DNA of 47,123 nucleotides from Lachnospiraceae bacterium (lineage in GTDB: Bacteria; Bacillota; Clostridia; Lachnospirales; Lachnospiraceae), in contig JAAUZD010000012.1 of assembly GCA_014804785.1 (NCBI GenBank), positions 4,467 through 51,589 on the forward strand, read 5' to 3'. A model generated the notes under the pieces. The model was not told the DNA's origin. It searched no databases and saw nothing but the letters and a program-made list of their open reading frames with translations. Within the stretch, counting starts at the first letter, position 1. The number at the start of each line of letters is the position of its first letter. A program made the translations under genes and the position numbers. Shown here one piece after another: positions 766-44,688 of this stretch.

Positions 766-2709
766 TTAGCCTACATCCAGCACAGTGAAATTGTAATTGG
801 CAAAGAAGTTTTCTCCCACTTCAATATTGCTTCCGTAGTCGCAGTGAAAAGGGGCGTTGATGAATACATTTTTTCCTGTTTTCCCCAAAATATCTTTCAA
901 GGAAGCGGTAATCTCGCTTAAGTCAGTGGGATCAAGATGGTTGAAACGGGCAATCTTCTTTTTAGTCACAGCCTGTTTTGCAAACAATTCTTTCGTAGTC
1001 TTATAAGGAAGTCCGGCAAGCATTCTTTTTTCCATATCCAGAAGATCGATTACCAATACCTGACAGGAGTTTAAGGTAATCTGGTCGTCACAGATTTTAA
1101 TCTCACTTTGATTGTTGAGAAGGACAATGCCGTTGGAACTATCTTTTAGCGACAGGGTCTTTTCCTTTTCACCGAAGTTTGCCAATACTGCAACAGATTT
1201 ATCATCTGTCCTTCTTATGTAGGCAAAAATATCTGCCTCATCTTTATAAAGAGGAAGAAAGGTGCCATATGTAAACACTTCTTTATAATTTTTTGATTTT
1301 CGCAGTGCCAGAAGCTGTTTGTAATAGGAAAGAACGGAATTCTTGTCTTCAAGCTGTGCTTTTACATTGAGGTTTTTATAATTGGGGTTTACCTTAAGCC
1401 ATGGGCGTCCTGTCGTGAAGCCTGCATTTGCAGAGTCATCCCACTGCATAGGGGTTCTGGCGTTGTCGCGGCTGTTTTGACAGCAGATGTTCAAGGCTTC
1501 CTCGTTGGTAAGACCAGAGGAAAGTGCCATCTGGTATTCACCGTGGGTGCTGATGTCATCATAGTCATCAATGGAATCCATAGGGCAGTTGCACATACCG
1601 ATTTCCTGTCCCTGATATAAAAAGGGAAGTCCGCGGAGCAATACGCTGATAGTGCCGAGCATTTTCGTTCCATCATTATTCTGGGCATATGTCGGCAGGT
1701 AGCGGCTTACGCCTCTTGGCTCGTCATGGTTTTCAATGATGTTTGCAAGGAATCCTACATCCAGACATTCTGACTGGGAGTGAAATAAAGCATTCCTGAA
1801 ATCCTCGAATTGGATTGGCTTGCTGTCATACCAGCCGTGTTCGCCCATGGATAGGGAATGGGCAGAAAAGTCGAACATGGTGGAGAAATGACCGTTTTCG
1901 CCAACAAATTCCACCAATTCATCTTTTTTCATATTGAAGACTTCCGCTACAGTGAATGCCTGATATTTTTCAAAGGTGTTCTTTTTTAAATCTTCCAGCA
2001 GATCGCCTACGCCGTTGACCTTTTCTACCATATGCCATACGCTGGCAAGCCCGTCAGGACCATCCGGTTCAAGATTGGCAAAGGTCAGGTCCTTTTTAAT
2101 GTTGATGATGGCGTCGATACGGAAGCCGGCAACGCCCTTTTCCAGCCACCAGTTGATCATAGTATATAATTCATTTAAAAGTTTTGGATTATTCCAGTTT
2201 AAGTCCGGCTGCTCCTTTGCAAACATATGAAGGTAGTAATAGTCGGTTCCGGGCACTTTTTCCCAGGCACTGCCGCCAAAGTAAGAGCGGTAATTGCTGG
2301 GGGGCTTGCCGTTTACGCCTTTGCGGAAATAGAAGTAGTCACCGTACTCACCGTCAGGATCCTTAAGTGCCTTCTGGAACCATTCATGCTGATCAGAGCA
2401 GTGATTAATGACCAGGTCCATCACAATATACATTTCTCTTTTCTTTGCTTCGGCAAGCAGAGTATCAAACTCTTCCATGGTGCCGAATTGTTCGGAAATT
2501 TTGTAATAATCCGAGATATCGTAGCCCTGATCCACGAATGGGGACTGGTAGATTGGGGAAAGCCAGATGATATCGATGCCAAGCTCTTTTAAGTAATCAA
2601 GCTTGCTGATAACACCTTTTAAATCACCGATGCCGTCTCCGTTTGTGTCACAAAAGCTTTTGGGGTAAATCTGATACGCAACTTTGTCATGCCACCATTT
2701 TTTGCTCAT
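766..2709 (-). CDS. malL: GH13 alpha-glucosidase (oligo-1,6-glucosidase type) with truncated acetyltransferase tail
   Basis: Hydrolyses alpha-1,6 or alpha-1,4 bonds of short malto- or isomalto-oligosaccharides in the cytoplasm. All GH13 blocks are visible: DLVINH (res 98-103), QPDLNW (167-172), GFRIDAI with nucleophile Asp199, FTVAEVF with acid/base Glu256, and ENHDEPR with Asp329. The glucosidase part is about 558 residues, normal for GH13_31. It is followed without a stop by the start of a maltose O-acetyltransferase (MEKRMLAGLPYK at 1035), which ends early at the TAA at 766-768. There is no ribosome site before that Met, so this is a true fusion. The start is 2709 rather than 2730 because GGAGG sits 8 bases before it. 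A promoter-like TATAAT within an inverted repeat lies upstream, after the araC-like gene, whose product is its likely regulator. Confidence 0.88.
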   Translation of the reverse strand: MSKKWWHDKVAYQIYPKSFCDTNGDGIGDLKGVISKLDYLKELGIDIIWLSPIYQSPFVDQGYDISDYYKISEQFGTMEEFDTLLAEAKKREMYIVMDLVINHCSDQHEWFQKALKDPDGEYGDYFYFRKGVNGKPPSNYRSYFGGSAWEKVPGTDYYYLHMFAKEQPDLNWNNPKLLNELYTMINWWLEKGVAGFRIDAIINIKKDLTFANLEPDGPDGLASVWHMVEKVNGVGDLLEDLKKNTFEKYQAFTVAEVFNMKKDELVEFVGENGHFSTMFDFSAHSLSMGEHGWYDSKPIQFEDFRNALFHSQSECLDVGFLANIIENHDEPRGVSRYLPTYAQNNDGTKMLGTISVLLRGLPFLYQGQEIGMCNCPMDSIDDYDDISTHGEYQMALSSGLTNEEALNICCQNSRDNARTPMQWDDSANAGFTTGRPWLKVNPNYKNLNVKAQLEDKNSVLSYYKQLLALRKSKNYKEVFTYGTFLPLYKDEADIFAYIRRTDDKSVAVLANFGEKEKTLSLKDSSNGIVLLNNQSEIKICDDQITLNSCQVLVIDLLDMEKRMLAGLPYKTTKELFAKQAVTKKKIARFNHLDPTDLSEITASLKDILGKTGKNVFINAPFHCDYGSNIEVGENFFANYNFTVLDVG

Positions 2710-2764
2710 AATAATCCTCCATGCTGCCAACAGCCCGCAAATTTGGGCGTCAGCACAAATTTGT

Positions 2765-24284: not shown

Positions 24285-25040
24285 TTACAGTATCTTTTCC
24301 TCTCTGCGTTTGCGGATGCCCTTCAAAATAATTTCTTTCTTTTCGATTACCTTATCTTTATCCATGGCAGGTACTCCGGCAAGTTTATAAGGGATGCCCA
24401 GCTTTTCATACTTGGATTCACCCATGGTGTGATAGGGAAGCACATCCAGAGCTTTCAGGTTATCGAACTGTCCGATAAAGTAACCAAGCTCGAACAGGTA
24501 CGTATCGTCATCTGTGATACCGGGAACCACAACATGGCGGATCCACATATCAACATGCTTTCGATTTAAATATTCTGCAAAAGCAAGGATACCGTCATTG
24601 GGCTGTGCGGTAAGCTCTTTGTGCTTTGCGGGATCGATATGTTTGATATCCAGCATTACAAGATCCGTAAGTTCCATTAATCTGTCAAGCTTCCTAATGA
24701 ATTCAGTGTTATCCGGTTTGAAAGCGATACCGGATGAATCGATACAGGTGTGTACATTGTTTTTCTTTGCGATGGTAAAGAGGTCTATCAGAAAATCCAC
24801 CTGCATTAAAGGTTCGCCGCCGGTTACGGTAATACCGCCTTTTTTGTAAAATTCTTCATTTCTTTTATACTGTTCAAAAATTTCTTCCGGTTCCATCATG
24901 GTGCCGCCAGTCATAGCCCAGGTATCGGGATTGTGACAGTATGCGCAACGCATGGGGCATCCCTGTACAAAGACCACGAACCGGGTGCCGGGACCGTCTA
25001 CAGTGCCGAAACTTTCTAACGAATGAATTCTTCCTTGCAT
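24285..25040 (-). CDS. pflA: pyruvate formate-lyase activating enzyme (radical SAM)
   Basis: 251 residues. It uses a [4Fe-4S] cluster and S-adenosylmethionine to place the glycyl radical on pyruvate formate-lyase. The cluster motif is Cys28-x3-Cys32-x2-Cys35 (QGCPMRCAYCHNPDTW). The GGE motif (TVTGGEPLMQ), IDSSGIA and the PFL-activase ending LDVLPYHTMGESKYEKLGI are all present. The start at 25040 has AAGGGAG 8 bases ahead; a TTG at 25046 is less likely. It lies about 7 kb from pflB on the opposite strand. The radical it makes must go onto a separate small protein here (34362-34604). Confidence 0.96.
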   Translation of the reverse strand: MQGRIHSLESFGTVDGPGTRFVVFVQGCPMRCAYCHNPDTWAMTGGTMMEPEEIFEQYKRNEEFYKKGGITVTGGEPLMQVDFLIDLFTIAKKNNVHTCIDSSGIAFKPDNTEFIRKLDRLMELTDLVMLDIKHIDPAKHKELTAQPNDGILAFAEYLNRKHVDMWIRHVVVPGITDDDTYLFELGYFIGQFDNLKALDVLPYHTMGESKYEKLGIPYKLAGVPAMDKDKVIEKKEIILKGIRKRREEKIL

Positions 25041-25069
25041 AACCAAATCTCCCTTCCTATTTCATCTTA

Positions 25070-31576: not shown

Positions 31577-31768
31577 TCAGAGTGCCTCGATTTTAGCCAT
31601 CAGATCATTTATATCCATGCCATGAACCATAGCGGCTTCCTCAAGGCTCTCAGCCTGTGCGGAGGGACAGCCAAGACAGTGCATGCCTGCTTCCATGAGG
31701 ATGGGTGCAACATTCGGATTGGTATTTAAAATCTCGCCTATTGTCATGTCTTTGGTAATCTGTGCCAT
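31577..31768 (-). CDS. DUF1858 redox-disulfide domain protein
   Basis: 63 residues, a complete DUF1858 domain: [56 protein letters not shown]. The Cys-x2-Cys pair (CLGC, res 31-34) is the redox-disulfide motif of the small domain often associated with hybrid-cluster proteins and other anaerobic redox enzymes. AAGGAGG is 9 bases before the ATG. It has its own promoter and is divergent from pflB, which suggests a common anaerobic physiology rather than a shared message. Confidence 0.92.
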
Positions 31769-31958: not shown

Positions 31959-31988
31959 TTGACTGTAAATGACATTCTAACATATAAT
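31959..31988 (+). promoter_or_regulatory. promoter of the pfl cluster
   Basis: TTGACT (31959-31964), 18-bp spacer, TATAAT (31983-31988), giving a leader of about 60 bases before pflB. The near-consensus form fits the strong expression expected for this enzyme. Confidence 0.75.
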
Positions 31989-32057
31989 GATGGTACGGTA
32001 ATAGCATAATTTTTATGCACAAATAAATAAAATTATATTATAGGAGGCTTACACAAA

Positions 32058-34097
32058 ATGAGACCAGAATGGAAAGATTTTGTAGGCGGCAAGTGGGAGA
32101 ATGAAGTCAACGTACGCGATTTCATCCAGAGAAACTATCATCCTTATGATGGTGATGAATCCTTCTTAGCTGAGGCTACACAGAACACAAAAGACTTATG
32201 GCAGATGGTGCTTGACTTGCAGAAGAAAGAGCGTGAGGCAGGCGGCGTTCTTGATATGGATACGAAGGTTGTATCTACAATCACATCACATGGCCCCGGC
32301 TACTTAGACAAGTCTAAGGAAAAAATCGTTGGTTTCCAGACAGATAAGCCTTTCAAGCGTTCTCTCCAGCCTTACGGCGGTATCAGAATGGCTGAAAAAG
32401 CTTGCGCTGACAATGGTTATGAGGTTGACCCTGAAATCAGCGAATTTTTCTCAACACACAGAAAGACACACAATGCAGGATGTTTTGATGCTTACAATGC
32501 TGAAATGAGAGCATGCCGTTCCGCACATATCATCACAGGTCTTCCGGATGCTTACGGACGTGGACGTATCATCGGCGATTACAGACGTGTTGCCCTTTAC
32601 GGTATTGACAGACTGATCGAAGACAAGCAGGCACAGAAAGATTCCACAGGACGCGTTATGACTGATGATGTTATCCGCCTTCGCGAAGAACTTTCCGAGC
32701 AGATGGTTGCTCTTAAGATGATGAAGGAAATGGCTGCATCCTACGGCTGCGATATTTCCAAACCTGCTACCAACGTACAGGAAGCAATCCAGGCTACTTA
32801 CTTCGGATATTTATGTTCTGTTAAGGAGCAGAACGGTGCAGCTATGTCCCTTGGACGTACCTCCACTTTCCTTGACTGCTACGCAGAAAGAGACCTTGCT
32901 AACGGAACATTCACAGAGCAGGAAATCCAGGAATTTGTTGATCACTTCATCATGAAGCTGAGATGCGTAAAATTTGCACGTACTCCTGAATATAACCAGA
33001 TTTTTGCCGGCGATCCTGTATGGGTAACCGAATCCCTCGGCGGTGTTGGCGTTGACGGACGTCCTATGGTAACAAAGATGAGCTTCCGTTATCTGCACAC
33101 ACTTACCAACTTAGGTCCCAGCCCGGAGCCGAACTTAACTGTTCTCTGGTCTACAAGGCTTCCTGAAAACTGGAAGAAATACTGTGCAAAGATGTCTATC
33201 CAGACTTCTTCCATCCAGTATGAGAATGATGACCTCATGAGAGTAACACACGGTGATGACTACGGTATCGCATGCTGCGTATCTTCCATGGTAATCGGTA
33301 AGGAAATGCAGTTCTTCGGAGCAAGAGCAAACCTTGCAAAATGTCTGCTTTACGCGTTAAACGGCGGTGTTGATGAAGTTACCAAGAAACAGGTTGGTCC
33401 TAAGTATCGTCCTGTTGAAGGCGATGTCCTTGAGTTTGATGATGTATACAGCAAGTTCATCGATATGATGGAATGGCAGGCGGATGTATATGTAAATACT
33501 CTGAATATCATCCATTATATGCATGACAAATACTGCTATGAAAGAGCTGAGATGGCACTTCATGACAGAGATGTTAAGCGTTACTTCGCAACAGGTGTTG
33601 CAGGTCTTTCCATCGTTGCTGACTCCTTATCCGCTATCAAGCATGCTAAGGTAGAGGTTATCAGAGATGAAGACGGTATCATCGTTGACTTCAAGACAAC
33701 TGGTGAGTTCCCTAAATATGGTAATGATGATGACCGCGTAGACAGCATTGCTCAGGACGTTGTTCACAAGTTCATGACAGCAATCAGAAGACACCACACC
33801 TACAGAAACGGCGTTCCTACAACATCCATTCTTACCATTACATCTAACGTAACTTATGGTAAGGCAACAGGAAACACACCTGACGGACGTAAGAAAGGTC
33901 AGCCTTTCGCTCCCGGTGCTAACCCGATGCACGGACGTGATACTCATGGTGCAGTAGCATCCTTATCTTCCGTATCCAAACTTCCGTTCAATGATGCACA
34001 GGATGGTATCTCTAATACCTTCACCATCATCCCCGGAGCACTTGGAAAAGAAGACCAGGTATTCGCCGGTGATATCGAACTTGATTTAAATAAGTAA
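32058..34097 (+). CDS. pflB: pyruvate formate-lyase catalytic chain lacking its glycyl-radical domain
   Basis: 679 residues; the family usually has about 750-760. It converts pyruvate and CoA to acetyl-CoA and formate. The sequence follows PflB from end to end: the double-cysteine active site GIACCVSSM (Cys406-Cys407), [34 protein letters not shown], and [36 protein letters not shown]. It then stops after [30 protein letters not shown]. That is exactly the point where the C-terminal glycyl-radical domain begins in the E. coli enzyme. The missing domain is encoded separately at 34362-34604, and both genes share one message with a 67-residue protein between them. AGGAGG precedes the ATG by about 10 bases. 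No frameshift or stop mutation is needed to explain the ending; the gene has its own clean TAA. Confidence 0.95.
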
Positions 34098-34134
34098 GAA
34101 TAAACTATAATCCGCTTTCGGGAGGTACAATGCA

Positions 34135-34338
34135 ATGGATGACAAAAAGATGATTGATGATCTTGTAAAAATGCTGGATTCCGGCATGGCTATGGGAGTA
34201 GGTCACGTCAACGTGGACTATGACGAGACAAAAGAGAAATCAAAAGATGTTCAGACCATGGGATGCACAGACTGCTCCAGAACGCCTCTGGCGTGCAGCG
34301 TACCTACCCTGGAAGATGGATTGGATGATTTTCGTTAA
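34135..34338 (+). CDS. 67-aa protein resembling a radical-domain start, with a three-cysteine tail
   Basis: Its N-terminal half (DDLVKMLDSGMAMGVGHVNVD) aligns with the first part of the separate glycyl-radical protein ([21 protein letters not shown]): 9 identities in 23 positions by eye, including D-x-LV, LD, H and NV. After that the radical loop is absent. Instead there is a charged linker and a tail with Cys44-x2-Cys47-x6-Cys54 (TMGCTDCSRTPLACSVPTL) and an acidic end. It lies 37 bases after pflB and 23 before the radical-domain gene; GGGAGG is 9 bases before the ATG. Function unknown. It may occupy the radical-domain site on the catalytic chain as a chaperone or inhibitor, or bind metal. 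The similarity is seen; the role is inferred. Confidence 0.8.
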   Translation: MDDKKMIDDLVKMLDSGMAMGVGHVNVDYDETKEKSKDVQTMGCTDCSRTPLACSVPTLEDGLDDFR

Positions 34339-34361
34339 GAATAATAAGGAGGTAAATTACT

Positions 34362-34604
34362 ATGGCAACAAATACGGCACAGGTAGATAACTTAGTATCA
34401 TTATTAGATGGCTACGCAACAAAGGGCGGACATCATTTGAATGTTAACGTATTGAACAGAGATATGTTATTAGATGCACAGAAGCATCCTGAGAATTATC
34501 CTCAGCTTACAATCCGTGTTTCCGGATATGCTGTTAACTTTATCAAATTAACACCGGAACAGCAGGCTGACGTTATTTCCCGTACATTCCATGAGTCCAT
34601 CTAA
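34362..34604 (+). CDS. free-standing glycyl-radical domain of pyruvate formate-lyase
   Basis: 80 residues corresponding to the last part of Pfl[22 protein letters not shown], then [26 protein letters not shown] and [14 protein letters not shown]. The radical-carrying residue is Gly55 in RVSGYAV. Small proteins of this type (YfiD/GrcA, phage Y06I) are known as spare parts that repair an oxygen-cleaved lyase. Here the neighbouring lyase has no domain of its own, so this protein must be the constitutive second subunit. AAGGAGG is 8 bases before the ATG. A strong hairpin follows. The activase (pflA, 24285-25040) should act on this chain. Confidence 0.95.
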
Positions 34605-34636: not shown

Positions 34637-34680
34637 AAGAGGGGCATATCACTTTGGGAATTAAAGTGATATGCCCTCTT
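34637..34680 (+). terminator. hairpin ending the pfl cluster
   Basis: Stem of 18 bp (AAGAGGGGCATATCACTTT with AAAGTGATATGCCCTCTT, one bulged G) and a 7-nt loop. No long T-run follows, so it may stabilise the mRNA end as well as terminate. Confidence 0.7.
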
Positions 34681-34863: not shown

Positions 34864-34922
34864 GCAGGGGGATCTGAAATGAACCTCCTGCAGCATCAAC
34901 CGTTTCTTTTTAGAAATCGGTT
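34864..34922. repeat. two stacked hairpins before the Rpn-family gene
   Basis: First GCAGG...CCTGC (34864-34868 with 34887-34891, extended by a GG/CC pair), then AACCGTTTC with GAAATCGGTT (34898-34906, 34913-34922). Both end 20 bases before the start codon. They could keep translation low or mark the border of a mobile unit. Confidence 0.5.
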
Positions 34923-34941
34923 CATCAAAGGAGGACAGGAA

Positions 34942-35832
34942 ATGAACGAAGTACACGTACAGCGCAATTATAAGGACACCATGTTCCGCATGTTGTTTAA
35001 GGAAAAGGAAAATCTTCTCAGCCTTTACAATGCGGTCAATAAAACATCCTACACAAATGTGGAGGATTTGGAGATTACGACACTGGAAAATGCAGTCTAT
35101 ATGAATTATAAAAACGATATCTCTTTCGTGTTTGATTTTGAGTTGATGCTCTATGAACATCAGTCTACTGTGAACCCCAACATGCCGCTGAGAAATCTGA
35201 TTTATGTCACAAAGGTGCTGCAGAATATCACAAGAAACGAGACTCTGTACAGCACAGTGCTTATCAGACTGCCAGCACCAAGATTTGTGGTCTTTTACAA
35301 CGGGGCTGAACCCCAGCCCGGAAAGCAGGTTCTGCGGCTGTCGGACGCATTTGAAAAGAGGATGGAAAAGCCGGAATTGGAACTTATGGTGAGCGTGTAC
35401 AATATAAATCCGGGATACAATGCGGAACTGATGGAGGCGTGTCGTTTATTAAAGGAATATGCACAGTATGTAGAACAGGTCAGGAAATTTGCGAAGAAAG
35501 CATTTTTCCCAGAAGCAGTAGAGCAGGCAGTGGATTATTGCATCAGGAATGGGATACTGGCAGATTTCCTGTTAAAGAATCGGGCGGAGGCGATAGCGGT
35601 GAGTATATTTGAGTATGATGAAGAGAAACATCTTAAGAGCGAAAAAGAACTGGCATATAAAAATGGAGAGGACGCTGGAATTAAGAAGGGAATTATGAAA
35701 GGAATTGTGAGAAGTGTGGAGTCTGCGATGAAAAACTTTAACTTGGATCTGCAGAGGGCGTGTGAAGGACTCGGAACCACAATAGAAGAGTACAATAAGG
35801 CGAAGGAGTGTATATCTAATAAGGATACATAG
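34942..35832 (+). CDS. Rpn-family recombination-promoting nuclease / putative transposase
   Basis: 296 residues. Start NYKDTMFRMLFKEKENLLSLYNAV is the typical opening of the PD-(D/E)XK transposase-like group common in Lachnospiraceae. The nuclease centre includes DISFVFDFELMLYEHQSTVNPNMPLR (Asp, then E-x-Q). It continues with FVVFYNGAEPQPGKQVLRLSDAF, VYNINPGYNAELMEACRLLKEYA and a C-terminal tail ending LQRACEGLGTTIEEYNKAKE. The start at 34942 has AGGAGG 6-8 bases ahead; the ATG at 34879 lies in the upstream hairpins. It appears intact. The decayed relative downstream shares the same tail. Confidence 0.85.
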   Translation: MNEVHVQRNYKDTMFRMLFKEKENLLSLYNAVNKTSYTNVEDLEITTLENAVYMNYKNDISFVFDFELMLYEHQSTVNPNMPLRNLIYVTKVLQNITRNETLYSTVLIRLPAPRFVVFYNGAEPQPGKQVLRLSDAFEKRMEKPELELMVSVYNINPGYNAELMEACRLLKEYAQYVEQVRKFAKKAFFPEAVEQAVDYCIRNGILADFLLKNRAEAIAVSIFEYDEEKHLKSEKELAYKNGEDAGIKKGIMKGIVRSVESAMKNFNLDLQRACEGLGTTIEEYNKAKECISNKDT

Positions 35833-36111
35833 GTGAAAGTTGAAATTGCATACATTTTAAAGGGGGATAATTATTGAAAAAACAATAACTCAGTGTTATA
35901 ATAGGTTCAAAGCAAAAGATTTCTATTAGCGGCGCAGCCGTATCTGAAAATATCTATTTCTGAAATTCTCGAAATCCTGCTTTTAAATCCCAAAAATCAA
36001 AAATATAGCAGGAAGTGTAGAGAATGCCGGTGAAGATACTGATACGTTGTAGGGGCGCAGCGAGAGGTATGAGAAAGGTGATACATTTTCCTGCACATAG
36101 GAGGAAAGTGT

Positions 36112-36862
36112 ATGGCGAATGGTGTAACAGCAAAATCAAAGGAACGGATGCCTTCATACTTTATGGAGAGCCTGTCTAAGCTGAATCTGAATGATCGTTT
36201 TTTGTTTGATGAAACGATGGAGGACAAGGAATCTTACCAGGCAGCGATGAATATCTTGCTTGAAAATGAGATAGAGTTGCTTGAGAAGCCGGTACTATCA
36301 GGCGCAGATGGATGTATCCCTGTTAGAACCTGGGAGTGTAGATTTTAACCTGCTGAATGACAGCTGCTTCATTATGATAGCGCCGTTTGATATATTTGGG
36401 AAGAAGCTGTACCGGTATACCTTTGAAGGAACATGCAGGGAGTGTCCGGAATTAAGGCTTGGAGATGGTGCGGTCAGAGTTTTTATCAACACGAAAGGAA
36501 GGGACAGGGAAGAGTTTTCTCAGGAGTTTTTGGACTTCATGGATTATATCAATGCATCAACAGATGAAGTGGCGGGCAGGACAGACAGTGCAAAAATAAA
36601 AATGATACATGAAAAAGTCAAGAGAATTAAGGTTTCAGAGAAAATGGGGGTGAAGTATATGCAGAAATAGGAAGAGATTGTGTATGCCAGAGAAGAGGGC
36701 AGAGAAGAGGGCAGAAGCGAAAAAAATGTGGAAAGCGTGGAGTCTGTGATGGAAAGCTTTCGTGTGGATTTGCAGAGGGCATGCGAAGGACTCGGAACCA
36801 CAATGGAAGAGTACCATAAGGCGAGGGAGAGTATACGGTTAAGAGATGCAGAAGGCATGTGA
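36112..36862 (+). pseudogene. decayed PD-(D/E)XK transposase-like gene
   Basis: The reading frame starts well (AGGAGG, then MANGVTAKSKERMPSYFMESLSKLNLNDRFLFDETMEDKESYQAAMNILLENEIELLEKP). It then jumps near 36290 into a different frame (SRYYQAQMDVSLLEPGSVDFNLLNDSCFIMIAPFDIFGKKLYRY). In intact relatives a stretch with the nuclease residues lies between these blocks, so an internal deletion removed it and shifted the frame. A TAG at 36668-36670 replaces the Trp codon expected in MQKWEE. After it the same frame continues as EEIVYAREEGREEGRSEKNVESVE to the RACEGLGTTMEEYHKARE tail. Three separate lesions make it non-functional. Confidence 0.82.
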
Positions 36863-37300: not shown

Positions 37301-37419
37301 AAACATGAACCCTAGAATTAGGAAAAAAGTAACAGAAAATAAATGGTATTAATAATAACTGATAATGTTGCCGGATTGAGAGCATGCTTCCGACGGCAAA
37401 GTATGTGGGGTTGATGAGT

Positions 37420-40400
37420 ATGAAGCAGAGAATGGAGAAAATGATATCTACAATAAGAGAAAGCGTGAAGAGAAGAAAACTCATAAGAAAGACAGTCGGT
37501 CTGGGACTGGCAATTATGATGTTACTTGAAGCACCTTCTTGGGGCGGACTCATAGGATTAGCGCTTGCACATGAAGATAAGGTGGGAACGGGACGTTGCA
37601 TTTACGTTGATACCTCCCTTATTGGAGTGGATTCCGATGTAATGGAGAGCGGCATCGGTGCGTATGTATATGACCGCGAGGGTAACTCTTATTCTGATGC
37701 GCCCATTATTATGGAAAAAGTAGATGGGAAAAAGAATATTTATCAGCTTGTCCTTGATGATTACTATACATATGTAGAATTTACGAAGGGATCTAGCCTG
37801 AGTACCAGCGCAAAGACGGGAGCATTGGCTATCGATTGGAGTTTGGGTGCACCTTGCTATATGTTCAACAGCGAGGCACTTTCAGATGGCGGATATTTTT
37901 ATGGTCTTTATACGGTTTACTTTGATTTGAATGGCGCTTCGGATGCAAGCGCATTTGCGGATAACGGAGTAGGCGTCTATGCATACAACTCAGATGAAGA
38001 TAGCTATACCTCGATTCCAGTGTCTATGAAAGCGTCGGGCAAAGGTAATGGCATCTATGAATATAGTTTTGATAGACCTTATGATTGTGTCGCGTTTACG
38101 GGCGGCTACGGCAGCTGGAATTACGAAGTTGCCACAGAAGTGTTCCAAATGGAGTGGAATTACAGCGCACCGTGCTTCTGCCTGGAACAGGTAAACGGAT
38201 ATGAATCCACCGGTATATGGCGCAATCTTAGATATACAGTTTATTTTGATGCGTCTGACATTAAGGAAGATGAAGCTTTCATTGAAAATGGTGTCTGGCT
38301 GTATGCATTTAATGATTCAGACGATAAGCTTAGCGATAATCCAGTGAAAATGGTTGCTTCAAGTGCAGGCAGCTATGTATATGAATATACAATGGAAAGA
38401 CCTTATGAAAATCTGCAGTTTATATTGGGCGATTCCTTAGATGCAGAGGTTGCTTCAGAAGTTTTGTATAATGACTGGCTGACATACGCAGAACCATGCT
38501 ACAAGATGGCATTAGACAGAAAAGAAGTTACAATGGCAAGCCCGTCTGCAAGCCCGAGCATGACACCGAGCGCAAGCCCGTCCGGCAGTCCGAGCGCAAC
38601 ACCTAGCGTGGACCCGAGCGCAAGCCCGTCCGGCAGTCCGAGTGCAACGCCTTCGACAAGCCCGAGCGTAACACCTAGCATGGACCCGAGTGCGAGCCCG
38701 TCCAGCAGTCCGAGTGCAACGCCTAGCATAACTCCTTCAGCAAATCCGACGGCAACTCCGACGGCAGAACCGATAGAGATACCGACACCGACGCCTACAG
38801 AGATTCCGACGGTAGAACCGACAGAGGCACCGACGACAGAACCGACAGAGGAACCGACTCCGGCACCAATACCGGAGGAGGGTTCTGAAGAGGAACAGCC
38901 GGAGACAGAAGACGAATCACAGAATGATAATGGAAATGAACAGAATGATGAAACATCATCAGAAGTAGAAGAACAGCCGCAGCCATTGGATGAGGCGAGA
39001 GCCGTAGGCAGAATGACGGTTACATATGGATCTTATAAAGCAACTTGGGTGGGCACAGAGAATGAAGAAGAAATTGAACTTAATACTATAGAAGAGGATG
39101 AAAATTCGGAAGACACAGATGAGACGGATGATGTGGATGATACGGATGAATCAGCAACAACGGATGATTCGCAGACCGCAGTAGAACCAATCGTTCCGGA
39201 GACTCCGGAAACACCAATGGCAACGAACGTTCCGACAGACGAAAATCCTGCGCCTACGACAGACGATGAGACAGACGGAACACAGGAACCTGCTATTGAC
39301 CCGGATATGGTGAGTCCATCTCCGACGGCATCACCGGAAGGAATTGAAGATGATGAGTCGGTTAAAACAACAATGTCTTTGCTTTCCAGCACGGGCGCTA
39401 CAATGCTTTTTTCAACTTTGGGTGCAATGTCAAGGGCAATGAATGGAGGCACCAAAGTAGTGTATTATGATCCTTCGTATACTAAGGATTATGATGGTGC
39501 TTGGGGAGGCACGAGAAATGAAGAAGTGTGGGTTCATCTTTTTGGCTCCGGATGGGCGACCGAACTAATAAGGATGCAGCCGTCTTCGAGGATTAATCCG
39601 GAGACGGGCTCGAAGCTATTAGAAATAGATCTTTCAAGTTATCTTACAGAAGAGCAAATGCAGGGCTCTATAAGCGCGATTTTTGTGTCGCAAGCAACTT
39701 GGCCGGCTGACACGGATCCGAATTATCTTCAAACTGTTAATATAGAACTTACAGGTTCACATCCTTGCTATTGGCTTACTGGAGAAATGGCTAAGAATCT
39801 TTCAGATGGTAAGACGAAGAGAGCAGTAGCATATGCTGAATTAGGACCAGAGTCTCAAGGTGGAAATCCAATTTATTTTGTTGACATGACATCACAATTG
39901 AATGGTGATATTGTGGCAGTGTTTGGAGGAGACGAGATTTCGGACTCTGAGGATGTGGTTTTTAACTCTACAACAAAAAAATGTGAGATACCTAATGATG
40001 ATGATAATGTATTAAATCAACCCTATACTACTGTGACGTTTTATGATTCGGAAGGTAATCAATTAGGTGAAACTTACAATTTGTTCAATAAGACAACAGG
40101 CGGTGCTACGGGATTCTTTTATGATAAAGACACCATGAATACTTTCTATTATGGTGCTACTGAAAAGACAGATGGAACGAAAATCAGCTACTGGGGAGCA
40201 CCTCTTCCTGAGGAAGAAGTATCATTGACAGGCAAGATGCTTTACTTTGATAAGCTGTACTTTAAAACAACAAAATCTGTAGATGCAGACGATGAAACCA
40301 GTGGTACAGGCAACGCGAGTGGTGCAGAAGAGGCAGGAGCTAAGTTCCGGATTGGTATAGGGGAAGAAGTTCCGCTGACAGTGTCTGAAGAAGATGAAAG

Positions 40401-43400
40401 AACATACATTTATACCTTTGACAGCAATCCTGCGGCGACTTCTAAAACGGTTTTGACTTATATAGACCAGGATGGGACGGAGTACCACTTCCTCTGGAAT
40501 GAATTTGACTTGAAAAATGCGGACGGAACCACGATTGCAGACGGTAACAATCTGGTTACACAAAAAGACGAGATTGCCGCGGTTATGGGACAGTATGTAT
40601 TAGGCAACTGGATTTATTTTGATGCGACCATGTCAAAATTGCCCAATGAAAGTGTTAATAGCCAGATCCCTTATGAAGAGGGGGTTGTCTGGTGCATGAT
40701 GGCAACAGGAAAATCTGGTGAAAATGCTCGAACCATAGAGATGACGAAGGTTGAAGACAGGGGCACATGGAAGGATATCTGGAAAATAGATCTGCCAGAG
40801 GAATATACATATGTTAGGTTTGCAAATTATAAGATTACGAAGGATGATGGTGCATATGCCAACGGAACAGACTACCAAAAAGTTCCCGCCAATCTTTATG
40901 ATCCCTGCTTTTATGCAGATGCCGGCGATGATGCAATATATGGAAATAACTGGCGCGGCGGTTACTGGGATGAAGTTTATACACTCAGAGATCCTGAATT
41001 AATCAAAGAGACTCCGGTGGTTGATATCACGCAGACAGATTATACAAAAAATACGAAGAGATTGTATGTTAAGACTACATTGTATGATTATTATACAGAT
41101 TATGAATTGAATGGGAATAATCGTGATAGCCTTTCGGGATTCGAGAATATGTCAGCTCGCGATTGGGTGCCATTTAGGGAATTCAATCAGGCTTTGAGCG
41201 ATTATTACGAAGAAGCTGGAGTAACAATTCCTCTTTATACCGGACATTTCCAGCCTCATGATTTAGGAGGTGAATTCAAGGGCACAGTAGCTGATGCATT
41301 GAATTTGTACGGATATGGAAATTATGAAAACTTTTTCTCGACGAACAATTCGATGATGGATATAGGGGGAGGGGTAGACCAAGGTGATTATTCCAGGATA
41401 GCCCGAGGATTTGTTGCGAATGAATTAAAAGATGGTCAGATTTATTCAAGTGGAAATAGGGCGGTGCTTCCCTATTTCAACGAAGATTTCCTTGCAGGGA
41501 ATAACAGTAAAAATGCTGTTTTAGGTAAGGTATACGAAAATGTTTCGTTCCCCTTTGAATTAAAAGAAAACTATCATGAACAAGGCGTCTCTTATTGGGT
41601 CTATGATAGCAATAAAAAATCTCTGGAGATGAGGGAAACCTCTGATGGTGAGTATTATCTCTATGAGGATGAGGAACATGCGACACAATGGTGGAGCAAG
41701 AACAGGGACTCTAAGAATACAGAAAAAGATACATACGGATTTTTCCCGTTCAACTCAGGGAGTTTAAATGGTGCAAGATCTTATAATTATGGCTATGCTG
41801 CAAAGCTAGAAATCAAGTTCCGTCTAACCGAAGACGGTACAGTGGAAAAGGAAGGTGAGGGGACGGCACCAATCAGATTCGACTTTTCTGGTGATGATGA
41901 CGTATGGGTGTTCATTGATGGGCATTTGGCATTGGATATGGGTGGCGTTCATTCGCCTGCAACTGGAACCTTATATTTTAATGATAGATCATACGAAATT
42001 AGTAGCGTAAAGAAAAGCGCAGGTTCAAGTGATCTAGATAAAACGGGTAGCTTTGAAATAGATGGCTGCACATATGAAAATGGCAAGACAGTATATGATA
42101 CCCGAGAACACACCTTGACCATGTTTTATATGGAGCGTGGTATGTGGGAATCCAACATGAAGATCAGTTTCAATTTCCCGGACGAGAATCAGCTGGAAGT
42201 CGAGAAAAAGGTGGATACAACCGATGTCAATGACTTATTCAAGAATTGTTTTGATGGTCAGAAGATATTTGGATTTTCTATCAGAAATCTGGCAACACAT
42301 TTTGCTCCTAGGGATGCTGCTGGAGAAGAGAATGCTACACCGCCATATGAGTTCAATTTCGACTTTGATGGCATACGTCCGACATCGACTGCGAATACGT
42401 TTGAATCCGTATCTTCGTGGAAGGGGCATGATAATGTTGCTTACTGGTTAGCGTTGTTGAGTGATGGGAACGGTGCTTATAGAAAAGATAGATATGGTGT
42501 CATTCCTTCAATGGACGGCGCCGTAGATACAAGTAGAATGAAGTACCTGCAGTTCAGTTATTATTATGCAGGCTCTGGTTATCCCAGCCTTAGCGACATG
42601 TATCTGTGGATTAATACAACTGGGGGATCAACGGTACACACCCTAGGCGGAAAGATATATGGTCCTGCTACTATGAAGCCAGGAGAATGGGTTACATTGA
42701 CGGTAGATCTGGATCTGTTCTTCAGTGGTGACAGCGTAAACCGGGCTGGAATAACAGATATCGGTTTTGGCTATAATTATCCACAACCCTTTTATCTGGA
42801 TGACTTCGAGTTTAAACCGGAGACAACATCCCAGAAGCTGACCGGATTCATTACAAAACAGCCGGATATTCCGGATTACGGCTCGGCGACAAGTGCTCAG
42901 TTGGAAATACCGCGGGGCGCAATGTATACACGGAAATTAGAGGGTGTCGACGATACCTATGGAAAGATTGATAAAGCTGGAACATTTGCACTGGAGAATG
43001 GTGAAACAGTACTGTTTAGAGACCAGTTCCGGCGCGGTAGCTATATCGAATTGAAGGAACTTCTTGATTCGCCGGTCTTTTCCACGACATGGACCATGTA
43101 TGAAAATGATCAGCTGGTAAAGCGTATGGGTACAGGCACGATGGTAGAGCTTAGTACTACAGATGGGCTAATCAATGTGCCGGGCGTAGCAGTAGATGAT
43201 GGCAGACGAGAAATCCAGAGTAGTATGCCCTCGAGTGACGGTCCTGTATTCAATGACAGGAATAATTATCAAGGTATCAGGCCTGACGCTGATGTGTTCG
43301 TATTCCGCTCCTACTCGGATCCTGATTCTGATGCAGGTGTAACCAAACTGAAAGTTGTTTACACGAATAAAGTCAACGTAGGATCACTTACGATTAAGAA

Positions 43401-44688
43401 ATCCCAAGCGGATGGATCACAAGATCTGAATGAGGAATATCGGTTCAGAGTCACATTCACCAACATAGCGGGTATGGGACTTGAAGGTGAGACAGCAATT
43501 ACTAAAGAGTTTAAGCTCCGGGCAGGTGGCGTGGAAACAATCAATGGTATTCCGCTCAATACAGAGTTCGTGATAGAGGAACTAAAACCGGCAGATAAGT
43601 CTTTCCTTGAAGAGGTGACTAAAGAAAACGACGGCGGCGATTTTGACTTTGATGCCGAGACAGGACAGGTTAAAGGAAAGATCAACAAAGAATGTCCCGC
43701 TTACACCTTCAACTTCTCTAACATGTTGAAATCCACTATAAGTATTGAGGTGGAAAAGATATGGATGAATGCAGATGGCAGTGCAATGACAGAAGATCCG
43801 GATAATTTGGCGGACAGCGATCTTCCTGAAAATATCTCAATCCGTCCCCAGAGAAGAATTATAGGCAGTAACGCTGCATGGGAATCGGTTGAAAAGTATA
43901 AAGATGTTGTACAACTGGGTACCGTGGGATACGAAAGGATATGGAAGTATAAATTCTCAAATCTGGAGAAATACGTTGACAATACGGATGAGTCAAAAGG
44001 AATGTATGAGTATCGTGTTGTTGAAGTTGATGTCACGGAGGGCACGGAAAAGGTTATAGAAAGCGGCGGATTCTGGGATAACTTCCAGGTAAGCTATAAG
44101 GATAAGAGCATCAGTGGCAAAGAGGAAGATGACCCTTATAATGAAGAACTTTATACCACTGAAATAACAAATGTACATACGGTGTCCCTAAAAGTTAAAA
44201 AAGTGGATGCCAGCGGCAACCCTTTGGGAGGAGTTTCTTTCCAGCTGCAGAAGAAAGACAGTGCTGGTAACTGGGTACCTGTAGAAATATCTGTAAATGG
44301 CAGTACAGGAACTACGATTACAACACCGACTGAGGAAGAAAACCCGGTAGGAGGAGCAGGTGTTATCATCTTCTCAAACCTTCCCAGCGGTGAGTATCAG
44401 TTAGTCGAAACAGCAACGGCGCCGGGGCATACGCTTCTGGCAGCCCCTATTCCGGTTACCATCAATGCAGCCGGAGACTTCAAATACACAATCAACGGAG
44501 AAGAACAGACACCGGTAAATAATACGATTGAACTCACCATCAAGAATGGTCAGAATCTGGTGATGCCGGCAACCGGCGGAGCAGGACCAATCCCGTTTAC
44601 TGTAGGCGGCTTAAGCATTTGCATGATTGCCAGCCTTATGTATATAGACAGTATGCGTAAGCGCAGAAAGGAGGGTAAAGCCTCCTGA
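37420..44688 (+). CDS. giant sortase-anchored pilus tip adhesin
   Basis: About 2,422 residues (start at 37420 uncertain; 37384, 37414 and 37441 are alternatives). A signal peptide ([20 protein letters not shown]) is followed by three tandem repeats of about 100 residues (res 60-150, 165-255, 270-365; YTVYFD...VYAYN...YEYSFDRPY). Next come a Ser/Pro/Thr stalk (res 373-487), an acidic region, further carbohydrate-module-like units ([20 protein letters not shown]), and a fibro-slime/PA14-type domain with [23 protein letters not shown] near res 1490. An inserted jelly-roll-like stretch (res 1614-1807) and three Cna-B/SpaA-like domains lead to the sorting signal MPATGG, a membrane helix and a basic tail. 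It is the first gene of the pilus operon and likely binds glycans or host surfaces. Confidence 0.88.
   Translation: [2422 protein letters not shown]
38536..38880 (+). repeat. Ser/Pro/Thr-rich coding repeat in the tip adhesin
   Basis: Imperfect tandem repeats of about 36-60 bases coding [14 protein letters not shown]-like units, turning into PTxEPTE units towards the end. It forms an extended, possibly glycosylated stalk and is prone to length change by slippage. Confidence 0.85.

Follow-up and report, generated by a model that had tools for sequence, protein, structure and literature searches.

A probable natural split of pyruvate formate-lyase in Lachnospiraceae, accompanied by a cysteine element

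The window, a stretch of 47,123 nucleotides from a Lachnospiraceae bacterium, encodes what is likely a naturally split pyruvate formate-lyase (PFL), in which a truncated lyase chain (PflB) and a separate glycyl-radical subunit (GrcA3) would act in trans, with a cysteine element as third component. Here the element would be a small protein encoded between the two (MID); in other genera it would be a C-terminal tail of PflB. Among the enzymes of gut anaerobes, PFL is both central and highly sensitive to oxygen, which cleaves it at the radical glycine. This family keeps the part at risk on a separate protein of 80 residues that costs little to make, and the source genome encodes two such proteins. 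The strict alternation of MID with the cysteine tail of PflB points to an enzyme component that is still undescribed, and the whole is a natural counterpart to the spare-part work in Escherichia coli, in which one can ask whether radical-domain swapping gives recovery from oxygen. The features concerned are the following.

24285..25046, minus strand: pflA, PFL-activating radical-SAM enzyme (TIGR02493, Radical_SAM)
31577..31768, minus strand: DUF1858/TIGR03980 CxxC 'redox disulfide' protein, 63 aa, divergent from pflB (PF08984 and TIGR03980 above cut-off)
31959..31988, plus strand: sigma-70-like promoter TTGACT-18-TATAAT before pflB (11 of 12 consensus bases)
32058..34097, plus strand: pflB, truncated PFL chain, 679 aa (Shine-Dalgarno AGGAGG, 32042-32047)
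34135..34338, plus strand: MID, 67 aa, a helix-strand look-alike of the radical-domain start over about 33 residues, then CTDCSRTPLACSVPTLEDGLDD (Shine-Dalgarno GGGAGGT, 34120-34126)
34362..34604, plus strand: grcA3, free glycyl-radical subunit, 80 aa, radical Gly55 (PF01228, NF038360; Shine-Dalgarno AAGGAGGT just upstream)
34642..34676, no strand assigned: palindrome of 14 pairs after grcA3, possible operon terminator (terminator score on the minus strand only)
L175:7896-8177, contig C20 of the source genome, minus strand: second stand-alone glycyl-radical subunit, an orphan grcA3 (PF01228, NF038360)

A lyase chain without its radical domain

An earlier note on this DNA had claimed that PflB ends before the glycyl-radical domain and that this domain is a separate 80-residue protein two genes downstream, and both points were borne out. 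The stop lies 10 residues beyond ALGKEDQVF, and the TIGR01255 match (1085.8 bits, above the cut-off of 994.2) covers positions 2-665 of 744, the rest of the model being unmatched; the radical glycine is absent from the C-terminus of PflB and is encoded by a separate gene, not on the same chain as in TIGR01255. The product of that gene scores 160 bits with NF038360 ('GrcA3'), above the cut-off of 158, and falls below that of TIGR04365 (GrcA/YfiD; 99.9 against 170). Residues 10-681 of E. coli PFL align with PflB and residues 682-758 with GrcA3, which matches the C-terminus of the E. coli chain. The structure alignment used 50 of the 66 listed PflB references; a motif filter had kept 33 full-length rows out of that list, and L141 was taken out by hand. 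All 50 aligned PFLs have the catalytic cysteines C406/C407, all 9 aligned GrcA3 copies have Gly55 of the RVSGYAV motif, and the activase exceeds its cut-off (TIGR02493, 295.6 bits against 231.75), in agreement with the conservation claimed earlier. In the predicted model of PflB, residues 650-679 have pLDDT below 50, so that the model is silent on the placement of the C-terminus.

The earlier note had named an intact full-length PflB elsewhere in the genome as a refutation. None was found in the source genome (3.97 Mb, 99.5% complete), where a PF02901 profile search gave a single match, the truncated pflB itself, and no other PFL-family lyase chain; no complete lyase is there to be repaired. 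A search of the same genome for pyruvate:ferredoxin oxidoreductase with TIGR02176 gave a best match of 165.8 against a cut-off of 911.35. The genome does encode the second, orphan GrcA3 on contig C20 (NF038360, 158.2 against 158), which adjoins genes for a Crp/Fnr-type regulator and a CxxCxxCC protein. A third PF01228 match, a domain within a 746-aa frame on contig C32, probably belongs to an anaerobic ribonucleotide reductase. Among the named loci, those nearest to the window's GrcA3 (best 80 of 578), a Crp/Fnr-type gene was found just upstream of the orphan grcA3 in 14 of the 22 loci with enough sequence, and in none of the 51 operon loci. The median dN/dS of GrcA3 is 0.072 over 1351 pairs.

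The genes pflB, MID and grcA3 are consecutive on the plus strand, each with a Shine-Dalgarno sequence. The promoter-like site before pflB is by itself weak evidence, since 11 promoter-like sites were found in the region against 8.1 expected. In the window, pflA lies 7 kb upstream of pflB on the opposite strand; it was within the fetched locus, mostly downstream, in 43 of 51 pflB-bearing named loci (best 80 of 578). In the same set of named loci (best 80 of 578), the DUF1858 gene lies upstream of pflB in 28 of the 32 with more than 2.5 kb upstream, in 26 of them within 1 kb. In upstream stretches from other genera of the family it was present in 14 of the 20 that are MID-type, in 4 of 20 tail-type ones and in 1 of 20 full-length ones; one of the MID-type stretches is only 448 bp long, and the single positive full-length stretch comes from the genome of the re-fused gene L191 (see below). 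It was missing from all 15 full-length rows that fall outside the split clade. With kinship ignored, Fisher tests gave p 0.0036 for MID-type against tail-type and p 0.001 for split against the 15 full-length rows outside the clade. The CxxC protein is a possible thiol partner.

The cysteine element

MID appears to resemble the radical domain in part and has conserved cysteines. When profiles were compared, its first 33-36 columns aligned with the first 33-36 of GrcA3 (probability 96%), and the resemblance is limited to one helix and one strand, the latter corresponding to beta-10 of PFL and y-beta-1 of YfiD in the portion of PMC8683613 available. MID lacks the glycine loop and carries, after its radical-domain-like part, a conserved cysteine motif. 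The consensus over 80 loci is m...midDlvkmLD.gm..gvGHvNv(...)k.VqTmgctDCsrtplACsvPTLh.GlDd, with a middle part of variable length, and the residues conserved in at least 90% of the 80 rows include G23, H24, N26, C47, C54 and P57. No Pfam family matched MID up to E 1, and NCBIfam gave two sub-threshold matches, the stronger of them covering positions 3-28 of GrcA3 (E 0.045); neither collection places MID in a known family of glycyl-radical-enzyme accessory subunits. No relative was found in the PDB (best E 0.32). The AlphaFold2 model (H2-19 and E25-28, cysteine part unstructured) is of low confidence (pLDDT 62.9), and a fold search with it returned no credible match, only a single junk one. Two short forms, L128:1187-1351 (-) and L136:1159-1341 (-), stop right after the CxxC (GCTDCAK and GCTTCSQ) and do not have the ACxVP part.

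Across the 80 loci, all nine combinations of the reading frames of MID and GrcA3 relative to pflB were seen, which implies that the two are translated separately; stop read-through and frameshifting were rejected on these grounds.

The 56 split lyases fall into two kinds. In 35, MID is encoded in the genome and the PflB tail is free of cysteine; in the other 21, the tail has at least two cysteines and MID is absent; none has both and none has neither. Among the 35 MID-type cases, MID is beside pflB in 33 and on another contig in two (G130 and G002), the detached MID of G130 being a weak match of 31-32 bits. In the 47 named loci with a readable end (best 80 of 578), the PflB tail after ALGK has 14-17 residues and no cysteine. 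The cysteine tail of the PflB at L125, GCGDMACKVPTLHKGID, is similar to how MID ends, and in that genome the MID profile picks up the PflB tail unaided. When 150 genomes were scanned with this profile, its matches beyond MID were starts of radical domains and a single PflB cysteine tail. Outside the family its only hit (G441, E 7.1e-6) was rejected, since it is where the radical domain of a 775-aa PFL-like chain begins.

Full-length lyases differ from the split clade in this respect, the rows outside it having neither MID nor cysteine tail: a cysteine insert at the same place was absent in 43 of 44 full-length rows, the exception being L191, which lies within the clade and is a re-fused gene. 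The other four of the five re-fused genes have neither element, MID being absent from their genomes. The alternation gives a Fisher p of 7e-16 with kinship ignored; independent changes number 2 on starred branches of the tree and 6 on all branches, each going the expected way; with so few, a sign test is unable to reach 0.05. Taken together, the cysteine element is very likely a working part of the split enzyme.

Distribution and history of the split

The split pflB/grcA3 pair was found in 56 genera of the family including the source genome. The earlier note had called for a genome search for PflB chains ending at the same boundary and had named an assembly or sequencing error as a refutation; the same break recurs in 55 further genera, so that the arrangement is no single-genome oddity and such an error is excluded in practice. 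The GrcA3 model matched in 128 of 150 genera of the family (53 above cut-off, many of the others being ends of lyases of 740 aa or more) and TIGR01255 in 130 of 150, the TIGR01255 matches being of a short kind that stops near position 665 and a long kind that runs to 742-744. The split set comprises the 55 fetched lyases of the short kind and the pflB of the window. Short frames in two further genomes of the family (G142 and G034) were rejected as split lyases, both being contig ends. In the phylum sample, 119 of 398 genomes match at E 1e-25 or better, and outside the family all matches lie in frames of at least 740 aa except two, which were also rejected: one is cut by a contig end (G176), the other adjoins masked or unknown bases (G347), and the upstream residues of both are those of a fused PFL. 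No stand-alone radical subunit was seen outside the family among the 398 phylum genomes. The named loci (best 80 of 578) comprise 51 with pflB, 26 with an orphan grcA3 and 3 with MID at a contig end; in the 51 with pflB, the lyase is split and MID is present in every case. The full operon is also present in cultured isolates, among them Lachnospiraceae bacterium 28-4, bacterium 1xD42-87, Eisenbergiella tayi DSM 26961 and Lachnospiraceae bacterium P6A3.

A tree was built from 100 lyase cores over 666 columns, with 56 split and 44 full-length rows (40 from the family, 4 from the phylum search), unfetched full-length genes of the family being left out. One starred branch (SH-aLRT 99, in a quick tree without bootstrap) unites the 56 split rows with five full-length ones, which occupy two places: L191 in one, and L182, L184, L187 and L193 in the other. 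The four outgroup rows do not form one side of a branch. Three changes between split and full-length are enough on this tree, and forcing the 56 split rows into one exclusive side was rejected (AU p 0.0104). Since the other full-length genes fall outside the split clade, the simplest reading is one ancient split followed by two re-fusions; three or more separate splits would be less simple. L191:89-2386 (+) combines PflB, cysteine tail and radical domain in one chain, a natural re-fusion. With regard to its interpretation, the earlier note was right about the split and the conserved parts, and it overlooked MID, the orphan second copy, the family-wide distribution and the re-fusions.

How the parts may work together

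That PflB and GrcA3 assemble in trans, as the earlier note expected, is almost certain in our judgement, given that the arrangement recurs in 56 genera and that a close artificial analogue, the engineered E. coli pair tPFL:truncYfiD (lyase cut at residue 695, combined with the structured half of YfiD), is active once activated, with a kcat of 204 per s (PMC8683613, portion available). The same portion of PMC8683613 describes YfiD (GrcA) as a small separate chain whose radical glycine completes a lyase lacking its loop, as GrcA3 would. Unlike YfiD, which according to that text mends a damaged full-length lyase, GrcA3 comes from a genome that encodes no full-length lyase, and it also lacks the first ~60 residues of YfiD. 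In the proposed mechanism, the active-site cysteines would be supplied by PflB, PflA would place the radical on Gly55 of GrcA3, and the strand and glycine loop of GrcA3 would slot into PflB as YfiD does into oxygen-cut E. coli PFL.

In the available part of PMC8683613, residues 696-733 of PFL matter for binding, and tPFL, from which they were removed, shows radical installation with YfiD 32-fold below that of cPFL:YfiD. The whole corresponding region is missing from the natural PflB. If the 32-fold loss in tPFL is a guide, the split enzyme would need compensation, for which we assume the cysteine element or a better fit to be responsible. The element would accompany the split as a C-terminal fusion to PflB in some genera and as MID here, compensating in cis or in trans for a region like E. 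coli 696-733, and MID would offer a copy of helix and strand. With its front half mimicking these, MID would most likely sit near or in the slot for the radical-domain strand on PflB and aid docking, or alternatively keep the slot while the radical subunit is absent; we put forward this docking or placeholder role tentatively, as one possibility that could well prove wrong. The MID cysteines would make that step redox-sensitive, although such gating strikes us as doubtful. The second grcA3 beside the Crp/Fnr-type regulator would be a supply of spare subunits, and an oxygen-driven swap of the radical subunit is a reasonable possibility that falls short of our expectation. The combined picture of a lyase, an exchangeable radical subunit and a dummy domain (MID or tail) that holds the slot and redox-gates the insertion of a fresh subunit after oxygen, perhaps via the DUF1858 protein, is on the whole unlikely to hold in every part.

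Other explanations were weighed for both the split and MID. GrcA3 might be merely a YfiD-like spare part and the truncated PflB a decayed relic, in line with the NCBIfam name of an autonomous radical cofactor and with grcA3 lying away from pflB in the 26 orphan loci (of the best 80 of 578); such a role is possible in G085, G119 and G132, the three genomes in which split and full-length lyase genes occur together. However, the source genome has no full-length lyase to repair, the active-site residues of PflB are intact, and the split is retained in 56 genera and in all 51 pflB-bearing named loci (best 80 of 578), which makes this reading hardly credible. It is very improbable, too, that MID is a leftover of a tandem duplication of the radical domain, evolving neutrally and without function. 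In favour of this, the front half is similar to the start of that domain and the middle varies in length, but MID is under purifying selection (median dN/dS 0.217 over 229 pairs), has near-invariant residues including C47, C54 and P57 across 80 rows, alternates strictly with the PflB cysteine tail, and is retained in detached form in G002 and G130.

Two readings grant MID a function of another kind. Small subunits of other glycyl-radical enzymes and the zinc site of class III ribonucleotide reductase offer parallels for a metal site (Zn or Fe-S) in MID or the cysteine tail that stabilizes the radical domain or aids the activase. Of the 80 MIDs, 59 have three cysteines, six have four and one has five, and CxxC is found in 68, as such a site would suggest; against it, 14 have just two, C47 and C54 alone among the cysteines exceed 90% conservation, and MID has no Pfam match, so that we consider a metal site unlikely, if worth keeping in mind. 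MID might instead recruit PflA, taking over the job of the disordered N-terminus of YfiD, which promotes radical installation (PMC8683613, portion available). That N-terminus is absent in GrcA3, whose 80 residues match only positions 67-127 of the 127 of YfiD. Such an adaptor seems rather improbable, the sole link to PflA being the presence of its gene in 43 of 51 loci (best 80 of 578), and the tail-type solution requires no strand mimic. We retain the split enzyme with an accompanying cysteine element as the preferred reading.

The split is partly known already, GrcA3 being named by NCBIfam and a tailed lyase without radical domain being in the PDB. Both source-genome copies exceed the cut-off of 158 of NF038360 ('autonomous glycyl radical cofactor GrcA3'), whose name implies a free-standing cofactor and whose entry as listed gives neither a truncated-lyase pairing nor MID. 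The solved chains closest to PflB are both called 'Formate acetyltransferase': PDB 38lb (1126 bits), which judging from its chain sequence is a lyase without the radical domain and with a 44-residue tail with cysteines past ALGK, and 38la (1074 bits), whose chain sequence ends at LGKED. A GrcA3 query matched neither. As both are missing from the best 50 Foldseek matches listed, from entries released up to 8 April 2026, they are probably newer than that set, and a paper accompanying them may exist. In the literature searched, in which subscription journals are thinly covered, we found no paper describing a natural split PFL, and a search on DUF1858 with hybrid cluster protein likewise returned nothing on one; MID, its alternation with the tail, the re-fusions and the links to DUF1858 and Crp/Fnr were found nowhere in that literature. 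The class II ribonucleotide reductase of Pseudomonas aeruginosa is presumably not split at its radical-bearing domain. It is a radical enzyme naturally in two chains, as the PFL described here would be, but of a different enzyme class (PMC4520616, portion available).

The window has other features of note. At 769-2730 (-), an alpha-amylase domain, SusG_C and a maltose acetyltransferase capping motif stand together in one 654-aa frame, possibly a gene fusion or a broken acetyltransferase. After the operon, at 34879-36862 (+), several frames, two of them without a Pfam match, have the common ending 'DLQRACEGLGTTxEEYxKA' and are probably decayed copies of one gene. The gene at 37384-44688 (+) encodes a 2434-aa protein of surface type, which has a SpaA domain and long repeats rich in Ser and Pro.
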